DNA of 64,000 nucleotides from Variovorax sp. OV700 (GTDB taxonomy: Bacteria; Pseudomonadota; Gammaproteobacteria; Burkholderiales; Burkholderiaceae_C). Below, one piece after another: positions 34,505 to 37,287 of the stretch; positions within the stretch are counted from its first letter, which is position 1, and every line of letters starts with the position of its first letter. The DNA is taken from assembly GCF_900099805.1 (NCBI RefSeq), contig NZ_FNDR01000004.1:372001-436000 (forward strand), written 5' to 3'. Below the pieces are notes generated by a model. The model was not told the origin of the DNA, did not search any database, and worked only from the letters and a program-made list of their open reading frames with translations. The translations under genes were made by a program, and so were the position numbers.

Positions 34505-36505
34505 TCAAGCCGCCGCGGCCATCCGCAACAGCTCGTCACCTTCGGTCACCTGCTCGCCGGGCGAGAACATCAGTTCTTCCACCGTTCCGTCGGCCGGCGC
34601 GGCAATGGTGTGCTCCATTTTCATGGCCTCCATCACCGCCAGCGGCTGGCCGCGGCTGACCTTGTCGCCGGCCTTGACCGCAAAAGACACCACCTTGCCC
34701 GGCATCGGTGCCGTGAGGCGGCCGCCTTCGGCATGGGTGTCGCCCGCGTGGGCCAGGCGATCGACGGCCGTGATCTTCGTGGCGCCCTTCGACGCGAACA
34801 CATGGGCCGTGGCGCCATCGAGGTGCACGTCCAGCGTCTGCCGCATGCCGGCAAATTCGACCTCGAACTCGCCCGACGGAAATTGGCCAACCACCAGCAG
34901 GCCTTGGACGCCGCCGGCCTCGAGCCACAGGCTGCCGTCGCGCTTGTAGGTCAGCAAAGCGGTCTGCTCGGCACCGCGAAACTCGAAGTCGAAGTGCCGC
35001 CGGTATTCGCCATGGGAGCGCCAGCCGTCGCGCCGCTCGAACGGATCGGGCGCGCCGGTCGGCCGTTCGGTGATCAGCGTGCGCGTGATGGCGGCGGCGG
35101 CGGCCAGCGGCAGGCCCAGCGCCTCGCGGTCGAACAGCACGGCGCGCTCGCGCTCGATCAGCGCCGTATCGAGATTGGCCTTCGAGAACGACTCGGTCGC
35201 GAGAATGCCGCGCAGGAACTGCACGTTGGTCGACACGCCCACGATCTGCACCTGCGCCAGCGCCGCATCGAGCCGCGCCAGCGCCTCGGCGCGCGTGCTG
35301 CCGTGCACGATCAGCTTGGCGATCATCGAGTCGTAGAAGGGCGAGATCTCGCCGCCCTCGCGCACGCCATCGTCGATGCGCACGCGGCTGCGCTGGAACG
35401 CCGTGGCTTGCGGCTTGCGGTACACGCGCAGCGTGCCGGTGGCGGGCAAAAAGTTGTTGTCGGGGTTCTCGGCGCAGATTCGCGCTTCGATCGCGTGGCC
35501 GTGGATCTGCAGCTCTTGCTGCTTCGCCGGAAGCGTCTCGCCCGATGCGACGCGCAATTGCCATTCGACGAGATCGAGGCCGGTGATGGCCTCGGTCACG
35601 GGATGCTCCACCTGCAGACGGGTGTTCATCTCCATGAAGAAGAAGTTCATCTCGCCGCCTTCCCGCTGCTCGACGATGAACTCGACAGTGCCCGCACCCA
35701 CGTAGTTAACGGCGCGCGCTGCAGCCACGGCGGCTTCGCCCATCTGCTTGCGCATTGCCTCGGTCATGCCAGGCGCGGGCGCTTCTTCCAGCACCTTCTG
35801 GTGGCGCCGCTGCACCGAGCAGTCACGCTCGAACAGGTAGACGTAGTTGCCGCGCGTATCGCCGAACACCTGGATCTCGATGTGGCGCGGGCGCTGCACG
35901 TACTTCTCGATCAGCACCGCGTCGTCGCCGAAGCTGTTGATCGCTTCGCGCTGGCATGAAGCCAGTGCGGCCGCGAAGTCTTCCGCCCGGTCGACCGCGC
36001 GCATGCCCTTGCCGCCGCCGCCCGCGCTGGCCTTGATGAGCACGGGGTAGCCGATGCGATCGGCCTCGCGCTGCAGCAGCGCGGAGTTCTGGTCGTGGCC
36101 GTGGTAGCCGGGCACCAGTGGCACGCCGGCTTTTTCCATCAGCTGCTTCGACTCGGCCTTGAGGCCCATGGCCTTGATGGCCGAAGGCGGCGGGCCGATG
36201 AAAACCAGCCCCGCGTCCGCGCAGGCCTGCGCGAACTCTTCGTTCTCGCTCAGGAAGCCGTAGCCCGGATGCACGGCCTCGGCGCCCGTGGCCTTGGCTG
36301 CTTCGAGGATCTTCTCCCAGCGCAGGTAGCTGTCCTTCGGCGCGCTGCCGCCCAAGTGCACCGACTCGTCGCAGGCGCGCACATGGTTGGCATGCGCGTC
36401 GGCATCGGAGTACACGGCCACGGTGCGGATCGCCATGCGTCTCGCGGTTGCGGCAACACGGCAAGCGATTTCACCGCGATTCGCAATCAGTATCTTCTTA
36501 AACAT
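34505..36505 (-). CDS. liuD: 3-methylcrotonyl-CoA carboxylase, biotin-carboxylase/biotin-carrier subunit
   Basis: 666-residue alpha subunit that carboxylates its biotin and passes CO2 to 3-methylcrotonyl-CoA in leucine degradation. The N-terminal biotin carboxylase domain starts MFKKILIANRGEIACRV, with the ATP-grasp glycine loop KASAGGGGKGMR and FMEMNTRLQVEHPVTE. The C-terminal carrier domain has the biotinyl-lysine motif VMEAMKMEHT. ATG 36505 has only a weak ribosome site. Its start overlaps the stop of a 41-codon upstream ORF that repeats its own first 11 codons, so initiation is probably coupled. Confidence 0.94.
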   Translation of the reverse strand: MFKKILIANRGEIACRVAATARRMAIRTVAVYSDADAHANHVRACDESVHLGGSAPKDSYLRWEKILEAAKATGAEAVHPGYGFLSENEEFAQACADAGLVFIGPPPSAIKAMGLKAESKQLMEKAGVPLVPGYHGHDQNSALLQREADRIGYPVLIKASAGGGGKGMRAVDRAEDFAAALASCQREAINSFGDDAVLIEKYVQRPRHIEIQVFGDTRGNYVYLFERDCSVQRRHQKVLEEAPAPGMTEAMRKQMGEAAVAAARAVNYVGAGTVEFIVEQREGGEMNFFFMEMNTRLQVEHPVTEAITGLDLVEWQLRVASGETLPAKQQELQIHGHAIEARICAENPDNNFLPATGTLRVYRKPQATAFQRSRVRIDDGVREGGEISPFYDSMIAKLIVHGSTRAEALARLDAALAQVQIVGVSTNVQFLRGILATESFSKANLDTALIERERAVLFDREALGLPLAAAAAITRTLITERPTGAPDPFERRDGWRSHGEYRRHFDFEFRGAEQTALLTYKRDGSLWLEAGGVQGLLVVGQFPSGEFEVEFAGMRQTLDVHLDGATAHVFASKGATKITAVDRLAHAGDTHAEGGRLTAPMPGKVVSFAVKAGDKVSRGQPLAVMEAMKMEHTIAAPADGTVEELMFSPGEQVTEGDELLRMAAAA

Positions 36506-36529
36506 GGTGGACTTTCGCGGTGAAATTGC
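36465..36529. repeat. Inverted repeat flanking the liuD start codon
   Basis: GCGATTTCACCGCGA at 36465-36479 and TCGCGGTGAAATTGC at 36515-36529 are inverted copies with one mismatch in 15. On the liuD mRNA they could pair around a 35-nt loop that holds the start codon. The inner copy is part of the coding sequence (RGEIA). Confidence 0.7.
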
Positions 36530-36623
36530 CAGAGCACGCTGCGCGTGCCATGCGATTTGGCTTCGCCGCTGCGCCGCTTTGCGGCTGGTCACCGCGATTC
36601 GCAATCAGGATCTTCTTAAACAT
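36471..36623 (-). repeat. Duplicated start region of liuD (35-bp direct repeats, period 118)
   Basis: 36471-36505 and 36589-36623 are 35-bp direct repeats with one mismatch (36491 against 36609). Each begins on the minus strand with ATGTTTAAGAAGAT and continues through the codons for ILIANRG. The 83 bp between them are unrelated except for an inverted fragment of the same region (36515-36529). Confidence 0.9.
36498..36623 (-). CDS. 41-residue leader ORF created by duplication of the liuD start
   Basis: It starts at ATG 36623 with MFKKILIANRG, identical to the start of liuD, then diverges into DQPQSGAAAKPNRMARAAC and a basic tail. Its ATG overlaps the DUF4126 stop codon, and its TAA (36500-36498) lies inside the first codons of liuD, so ribosomes finishing it are positioned at the true start. 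GGGAG lies upstream of this copy. It is either a translated coupling leader or a decayed fragment; the sequence alone cannot decide. Confidence 0.5.
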   Translation of the reverse strand: MFKKILIANRGDQPQSGAAAKPNRMARAACSGNFTAKVHHV

Positions 36624-37287
36624 TCGGAGTGTCTCCCGGAGGATTCTTTTTCAGTTGAAACGCAGGCGTGACGCCCGGATCGGGTCGGCCGCTGAAGATG
36701 CGTGCCACGCGGGTGAACAGCGCCTTGAGAAAGCGCCAGCTCTTGCGGATGAGCCACACGCTGAGCACCAGCACGAGGATGAACAGCGCGAGAAAGACCA
36801 GCGGATGCGCCACCGCGAGCCACAGCCCGGCGGGCACCATGCTGTCTTCGACCAGCGATGCGCCCACGTTGGAAAACGGCTCGGGCGAGGTGTTGATGGC
36901 TGCACGCGTCGTGGCCTTGGCCGCATGCGCGGTGGCCGCGAAGCCGCCGCCCAGCAGCGCCGCCACGATGGCCATCACGCCATGGTCGGCGCCGAACACA
37001 CTGGCCGCGAGCGCCGCACCGGCGGGAATGCGGATGGCGGTGTGCACCACATCCCACAGGGAATCGAGGCCGGGAATCTTGTCGGCGAAAAACTCGATGA
37101 ACACCATGAACCCGCTCGCCGCGATGACCACCGGATGCGCGAGCAGCTGCAAGCCGCTCGGCAACGGCACCCATCCGAAGTAACCGGCGAGCCCCGTCAG
37201 GAGCACGACGAGGTACAGCCGCACGCCGCTGGCCCAGCCGATGGCCGCAGCCAGGGCGAGCAGTTGGGGCATGTCGAGCGCGTTCAT
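36616..37287 (-). CDS. DUF4126 family membrane protein
   Basis: 223-residue integral membrane protein with several hydrophobic segments (LLALAAAIGWASGVRLYLVVLLTGLAG, VVIAASGFMVFIEFFADK, FLALFILVLVLSVWLI). The FFADKIPGLDSLWDVVHTAIRIPAGA segment is the DUF4126 core. Function is unknown. It sits between liuC and liuD in the leucine degradation cluster. Its TAA overlaps the ATG of the duplicated liuD start (ATGTTTAA). A membrane protein in this position might serve uptake or export, but nothing shows that. Confidence 0.8.
   Translation of the reverse strand: MNALDMPQLLALAAAIGWASGVRLYLVVLLTGLAGYFGWVPLPSGLQLLAHPVVIAASGFMVFIEFFADKIPGLDSLWDVVHTAIRIPAGAALAASVFGADHGVMAIVAALLGGGFAATAHAAKATTRAAINTSPEPFSNVGASLVEDSMVPAGLWLAVAHPLVFLALFILVLVLSVWLIRKSWRFLKALFTRVARIFSGRPDPGVTPAFQLKKNPPGDTPNV

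Follow-up and report, generated by a model that had tools for sequence, protein, structure and literature searches.

A recurrent leader of biotin-carboxylase genes

In Variovorax sp. OV700, liuD is preceded by a short open reading frame whose beginning duplicates that of liuD itself. The arrangement is a real, recurrent leader of biotin-carboxylase genes, and sequence comparison and RNA models suggest that it most likely works by translational coupling. A preliminary description of this DNA had seen a relay ORF that preserves the stop/start coupling of a DUF4126 gene to liuD, and an inverted repeat enclosing the working ATG. Both points are supported, for they are seen again in other genera and in front of three kinds of gene. 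The biotin-carboxylase subunits in question have roles in making fatty acids (accC), in using propionyl-CoA (pccA) and in degrading leucine (liuD). No description of this leader was found in the open-licence literature.

Anatomy of the liuD junction

The window is the whole stretch of 64,000 nucleotides that was analysed. Its liuD product carries the Pfam domains Biotin_carb_N, Biotin_carb_C, BT_MCC_alpha and Biotin_lipoyl. Neighbouring genes carry enoyl-CoA hydratase, carboxyltransferase, acyl-CoA dehydrogenase and HMGL-like domains (Pfam), which we take to be those expected of a leucine-breakdown cluster. The first 35 nt of the gene occur twice, 118 nt from start to start, with 34 of 35 positions identical. 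The DUF4126 gene stops inside the upstream copy, where its stop overlaps the leader start codon (ATGTTTAA, 36616-36623). The leader in turn stops inside the downstream copy. An inverted repeat (36465-36479 / 36515-36529) is complementary at 14 of 15 positions. The preliminary description had this repeat anatomy right letter for letter, and the inverted gene fragment that it placed inside the insert is real.

Table 1. Features of the liuD junction, in window coordinates.
Feature	Position	Strand	Basis
DUF4126 gene	36616..37287	(-)	ORF list; Pfam PF13548, E 5e-57
Leader Shine-Dalgarno-like GGGAG	36633..36637	(-)	sequence; anti-SD pairing -7.4 kcal/mol
41-codon leader (relay) ORF	36498..36623	(-)	ORF list
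Copy 1 of the gene start, first 35 nt	36589..36623	(-)	direct repeat
83-bp insert between both gene starts	36506..36588	(-)	118-35 = 83
Hairpin P2, GCCGC-AAA-GCGGC	36573..36585	(-)	two-sided changes in comparison
Hairpin P2b, GGC-GAA-GCC	36559..36567	(-)	two-sided changes in comparison
Hairpin P4, GCACGC-GCA-GCGTGC	36534..36548	(-)	96.1% of cells paired; two-sided changes at 6/6 pairs
Anti arm, 3' part of the leader, complementary to the gene	36515..36530	(-)	repeat and comparison
Gene arm, liuD codons ~9-14, pairs with the anti arm	36465..36479	(-)	repeat and comparison
ATGTTTAA, liuD start overlapping the leader stop, -8 spacing	36498..36505	(-)	sequence and comparison
Copy 2, working liuD start	36471..36505	(-)	direct repeat; ATG at 36505
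liuD, methylcrotonyl-CoA carboxylase alpha subunit, 666 aa	34505..36505	(-)	Pfam

The leader ORF matched no protein family in NCBIfam or Pfam. Rfam covariance models gave no match at E<=1 in positions 36300-36800 of the window and none at gathering score in 11 unit loci, and a known RNA family is rejected on this result. A terminator search returned two matches, both on the plus strand; with no terminator-like site on the coding strand, a transcription terminator is rejected. Folding of this mRNA stretch had also been proposed. The arms are indeed complementary, but folded alone the 170 nt of the window do no better than shuffles (z -0.22; 82 of 200 shuffles fold as well). The structural evidence comes from comparison.

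Distribution within the genus

With a 601-nt stretch across the junction as query, related DNA turned up in all but one of the 101 genus genomes. The liuD sample held 82 loci; leaving out two repeats of the same genome and one unreadable locus (L316 in G066), 79 of the 101 genomes could be read. The 118-bp unit, consisting of the gene start and the 83-bp insert, stands before liuD in 20 of these. Two of the 20 carriers hold it twice; two-unit arrays were read in G030 (second unit L215) and G052 (second unit L214). The other 59 have an exact empty site, in which the upstream sequence runs straight into one start. The comparison across Variovorax suggested in the preliminary description thus found the unit present in some relatives and absent from others. 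A private, recent event, such as a recent template switch, is not supported, with the unit in 20 of 79 genus genomes and in other genera; a recent private duplication is likewise rejected because relatives carry the unit. An assembly artefact, which it had also considered, is opposed by the same recurrence, and since other genomes show the same anatomy, chance or artefact is an unlikely source of the repeat. On the tree of the liuD body, carrier state needs at least 18 changes, and shuffled labels need 18 on average. A unit as scattered as shuffled labels is dispensable.

The accC and pccA genes of the genus were sampled as well. For accC, a match was present in 98 genomes, of which 90 were read, and the 82 sites scored as empty include one diverged carrier (L408). 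The pccA sample comprised 70 places in 69 of 95 genomes, namely the 30 best matches and 40 chosen to include known carriers.

Distribution beyond the genus

A pattern scan over the genome collection sought two gene starts 104-134 nt apart, with ATGTTYAARAARAT required in both copies. It returned at least 118 loci, at least 109 of them with a real unit: 41 before accC, 40 before liuD/pccA-like genes, 26 before pccA-like genes, and two followed only by a further unit. These gene kinds were assigned from N-terminal letters, and family models were used to check four genes only. Among the matches listed were Acidovorax, Polaromonas, Comamonas, Curvibacter, Hylemonella, Roseateles, Ideonella, Ramlibacter, Thauera and Aquitalea, all of which we take to be Burkholderiales in the wide GTDB sense. 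Units stand head to tail in 11 of the at least 109 loci, with up to three units. Three near-identical 121-bp units precede a carboxylase gene in Caldimonas mangrovi (L083), and two-unit arrays were also read at L076, L092, L097, L104, L152, L158, L160 and L177. Tandem arrays in a Cyclobacteriaceae MAG (L069), in Evansella (L091) and in an archaeal MAG (L099) match the pattern and are apparently unrelated to biotin-carboxylase genes.

A covariance model of the alpha-type unit (R1) has one strong copy in the genome of strain OV700, and a genome-wide repeat is rejected for this reason. In the genus, R1 matches 28 of 101 genomes at E<=0.01, 26 of them at E<=1e-8. In the order, 28 of 399 genomes match at E<=0.01 and 25 at E<=1e-8, that of OV700 included. 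In a class sample of 274 genomes, again with OV700 included, nothing else scored better than E 0.001. All 54 loci read with E<=1e-8, which leave out one order match (the second unit of G383), precede a biotin-carboxylase gene, as judged from N-terminal letters, or a further unit before one. Seven strong genus matches without an assigned locus were read too. Matches taken as chance are those of up to 26.5 bits in the genome of OV700, three class matches (E 0.001-0.006) and L212, L213 and L240-L242. A model of the accC units (R2) was too weak for such a survey (11 of 399 order genomes, best E 6e-6).

Reading frame and stop/start overlap

The spacing of the two starts is linked to the second codon of the gene. 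Across 114 distinct units from the junction search and the pattern scan, TTT stands at codon 2 in 88 of the 89 with a spacing of 1 mod 3 and in 6 of the 25 with another spacing (Fisher p 1.6e-15; Fisher tests and shuffles ignore the relatedness of units). With TTT at this codon and a spacing of 1 mod 3, the leader stops in ATGTTTAA, 8 nt inside the gene. Of the 74 alpha-type units, 67 have this overlap and 7 lack it; of the 40 accC units, 21 have it and 19 lack it. In 13 of the 19, the leader stop lies 11-12 nt upstream of the gene. The units thus show the stop/start overlap or closeness of translationally coupled pairs. According to a review, -8 nt is one of three enriched spacings of overlapping stops and starts (PMC12548453).

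The empty sites of the genus lack this mark. In the 21 accC and pccA carriers, codon 2 of the gene is always TTT, and that of copy 1 is TTC in 19. Sites scored as empty have TTC in 133 of 139 cases and TTT in 6 (p 3e-21 against carriers), and one of the six exceptions is the diverged carrier L408. In liuD, TTT is mostly kept at both starts because the stop of the upstream DUF4126 gene needs it too.

The N-terminus of the leader matches the start of its own gene, and the rest varies with the type of unit. L408, before accC of G012, is without this match; its peptide is unrelated to the gene. It keeps the spacing of 1 mod 3, the -8 stop and a long hairpin, for which reason the unit seems to work through its frame and hairpin and not through the peptide. 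The two copies differ mainly at third codon positions (18:5:153 by position in 74 alpha-type units and 10:6:82 in 40 accC units). This bias is not counted as selection on the peptide because copy 1 can be a former native start. A conserved small protein is disfavoured: the leader matches no family, and the codon-position bias may predate insertion.

Pairing of the leader with gene codons

The end of the leader pairs with gene codons ~9-15, with compensatory wobble changes. In 74 alpha-type units, the two helices between the anti arm and the gene are paired in 94.0% and 96.6% of cells. At the wobble position of Gly-11 the pairs are AU (44), GC (16), CG (5) and UA (3), that is, both sides change. 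The whole structure reaches a covariation score of 0.303, compared with 0.133 +/- 0.006 for shuffles; none of 500 shuffles reaches it. Slid versions collapse to at most 0.055. These controls, shuffling and sliding, ignore the relatedness of units. The 40 accC units follow the same plan with an additional internal loop, and their helices are paired in 97.1% and 85.2% of cells. Two pairs of the accC helix fail in 17-18 of 40 units, and pairing of the first hairpin reaches only 58% of cells.

The fit of each leader end to its own gene was compared with its fit to non-carrier genes. The own gene gives the better pairing than the median non-carrier gene for 19 of 20 liuD, 8 of 8 accC and 11 of 13 pccA carriers. 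Non-carrier genes that pair at least as well with the anti arm of a carrier amount to 7% for liuD, 29% for accC and 19% for pccA. Gene codons also differ between carriers and non-carriers. Codons 10-12 of liuD (R-G-E) read CGC GGT GAA in 19 of 20 carriers and in 7 of 59 non-carriers (p 1.3e-11). In accC they read CGC GGC GAA in 8 of 8 carriers and in 7 of 82 sites scored as empty. In pccA, Gly-11 is GGC in none of 13 carriers and in at least 40 of 57 non-carriers. Compared with the nearest non-carrier, liuD carriers show excess divergence only in gene nt 0-51, none beyond or upstream. In accC, copy 1 resembles the native start of relatives and the gene start differs.

The same anti arm could also serve a regulated attenuator. 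Leader-peptide attenuators such as erm and trp combine a short ORF with competing RNA pairings before a gene. The leader would then act as a sensor, through stalled ribosomes, a metabolite or a trans factor, and make the anti arm change partners between copy 1 and the gene. We consider this unlikely, although two observations fit. The pairings of the anti arm with copy 1 (87.8% of cells paired in the structure) and with the gene (92.1%) are mutually exclusive, and the strong loci read stand before carboxylase genes only. However, the wobble of Gly-11 is unpaired in 30 of 74 units in the pairing with copy 1 and in 5 of 74 in that with the gene, so the first is not kept at this position and is the weaker of the two. 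Leader peptides differ between unit types and in L408, and no run of a single amino acid was seen. The coding strand is without a terminator-like site. The unit differs from erm and trp leaders in three respects: no conserved stalling peptide was seen, no terminator was found, and its sequence is partly derived from the gene.

Translational bypassing, known from T4 gene 60 and byps, involves a structured insert flanked by repeated codons. The unit is likewise a structured insert between repeated codons, but the stop of the leader is kept. In the 8 accC carriers, the Gly-11 codon is GGG or GGA in copy 1 and GGC in the gene, which should not be read by one tRNA under the codon rules. At Gly-11 of these accC carriers, the mismatch of take-off and landing codons speaks against bypassing.

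A probable translational relay

Comparison and RNA models favour the reading of the unit as a cis-acting translational relay, a natural counterpart of two-cistron constructs, and we consider this probable. The old ribosome-binding site and the first 11 codons would now begin the short leader ORF. In an unread leader, the 3' part would pair with gene codons ~9-15 and place the new start inside a long hairpin. A ribosome reading the leader would unfold the hairpin and stop at the UAA that overlaps the AUG of the gene by 8 nt. The frame and the constraint on the stop suggest that the same or the next ribosome would then start on the carboxylase gene. Upstream coupling would be passed on in this way, from DUF4126 to liuD here and from accB to accC elsewhere, accB being assigned from its position and a biotinyl motif upstream of accC. 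The preliminary description went further and inferred a translational switch that could act on the LiuD:LiuB ratio.

A gene start that would be hidden until the leader is read is supported by the comparison above and by computed energies. Opening of positions -18 to +12 with the leader free is predicted to cost 16.6 (liuD), 15.7 (accC) and 18.7 kcal/mol (pccA). With the nucleotides upstream of -12 removed, a crude stand-in for a ribosome at that place, the cost is 2.5, 7.9 and 3.9 kcal/mol. Non-carriers need 7.7, 12.2 and 8.2 kcal/mol; the cost in accC carriers is thus modestly above that in non-carriers.

The Shine-Dalgarno (SD) strength in the window is -0.4 kcal/mol for liuD and -7.4 kcal/mol for the leader. 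In the liuD carriers (36506-36520 of the window and the same site in relatives), 11 of 20 genes have nearly no SD (-0.4 or -0.1 kcal/mol), two are intermediate and 7 are strong. Leaders of the carriers with a weak gene SD keep theirs on average. Opening energies together with weak gene and strong leader SDs suggest that a translated leader would give the gene both an open start and a supply of ribosomes. Not all carriers would depend fully on coupling, because accC carriers (-8.6) and 7 of 20 liuD carriers have a strong gene SD; pccA carriers also keep one.

A neutral by-product is very improbable. Strand-switch duplications and palindromes matched by mutation (template-directed correction) would then have produced the unit with no function. 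The insert does hold an inverted copy of the gene start and hairpins, and direct repeats allow slippage. Yet such an origin predicts neither the link between reading frame and codon 2 nor the weak gene SD in 11 of 20 liuD carriers whose leaders keep an SD on average.

In a review, translational coupling is described for overlapping stops and starts where upstream translation opens an inhibitory structure around the downstream start (PMC12548453). The unit shares with these systems the -8 spacing and, by prediction, the structure around the downstream start. It differs from them in that a short leader, opening with duplicated gene-start sequence, serves as upstream frame, and in that the lock is formed with codons of the gene itself.

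Engineers have built bicistronic designs in which a short first cistron clears structure from the start of the real gene. The unit likewise has a short first cistron, predicted to clear the start of the gene, but it occurs in nature, recurs, is specific to its gene, has a patchy distribution and forms tandem copies. With a duplicated gene start and a lock made with codons of that same gene, such a leader before related genes of a single bacterial order would represent an evolvable version of this two-cistron device that arose in nature. Related genomes with and without the unit are ready-made natural pairs for testing its effect and its easy loss.

Age, loss and gain

The insert is old in liuD because it diverges with the gene tree. 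In 19 carriers with a 118-bp last unit, insert divergence correlates with the gene tree (Mantel r 0.60, p 0.0005, from alignments and tree distances), which speaks against a private, recent event. The corresponding r is 0.69 for gene nt 51-200 and 0.08 for copy 1.

Losses of the unit are likely. The start of the empty site in G041 equals copy 2 of its sister G027. The pccA gene of OV700 itself (L444, G000:C30) has no unit, yet TTT at codon 2 and CGC GGT GAA at codons 10-12. The pccA gene of G034 (L432) is in the same state, and both starts look like scars of a lost unit. Among the 59 empty liuD sites, 7 have scar-like starts. Exchange may also have brought gains. In G002 compared with its nearest non-carrier G020, copy 1 equals the native start and copy 2 does not (0 vs 8 differences), and the same holds for G100 compared with G047 (0 vs 6). 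The unit is probably lost often and perhaps regained often.

Exchange could mean that the unit is a small mobile element. It would enter biotin-carboxylase genes after codon 11-12, bring a new start region and survive because coupling keeps the gene alive. Such a minimal start-displacing element of ~110-120 bp, without an enzyme and spreading among biotin-carboxylase genes by exchange, is improbable. Three observations fit an element of this kind: the scatter of carriers over the liuD tree, the head-to-tail arrays at 11 of at least 109 loci, and a copy 1 that equals a relative's native start when copy 2 differs (the two pairs above) or, in accC, resembles it. Copies at unrelated places were not found: R1 has one strong copy in the genome of OV700, and 54 of 54 strong loci read lie at biotin-carboxylase genes. 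No enzyme was seen and the units are gene-specific. Insert divergence tracks the liuD tree, and exact empty sites would also arise in an immobile unit through its loss when the 35-bp repeats recombine. If the idea were true, the resident start would be moved upstream as a relay leader and a new start supplied, nearly harmlessly, as a translation-level counterpart of an intron.

Two genomes stand out. In G100 (L038/L203), the unit is 117 bp long and the leader shares the frame of liuD, which counts against the relay; both could be read as one protein, but this is a draft genome and the length may be a sequence error. G010 has units before four carboxylase genes (L326, L330, L486 and L488): liuD, accC and two pccA.
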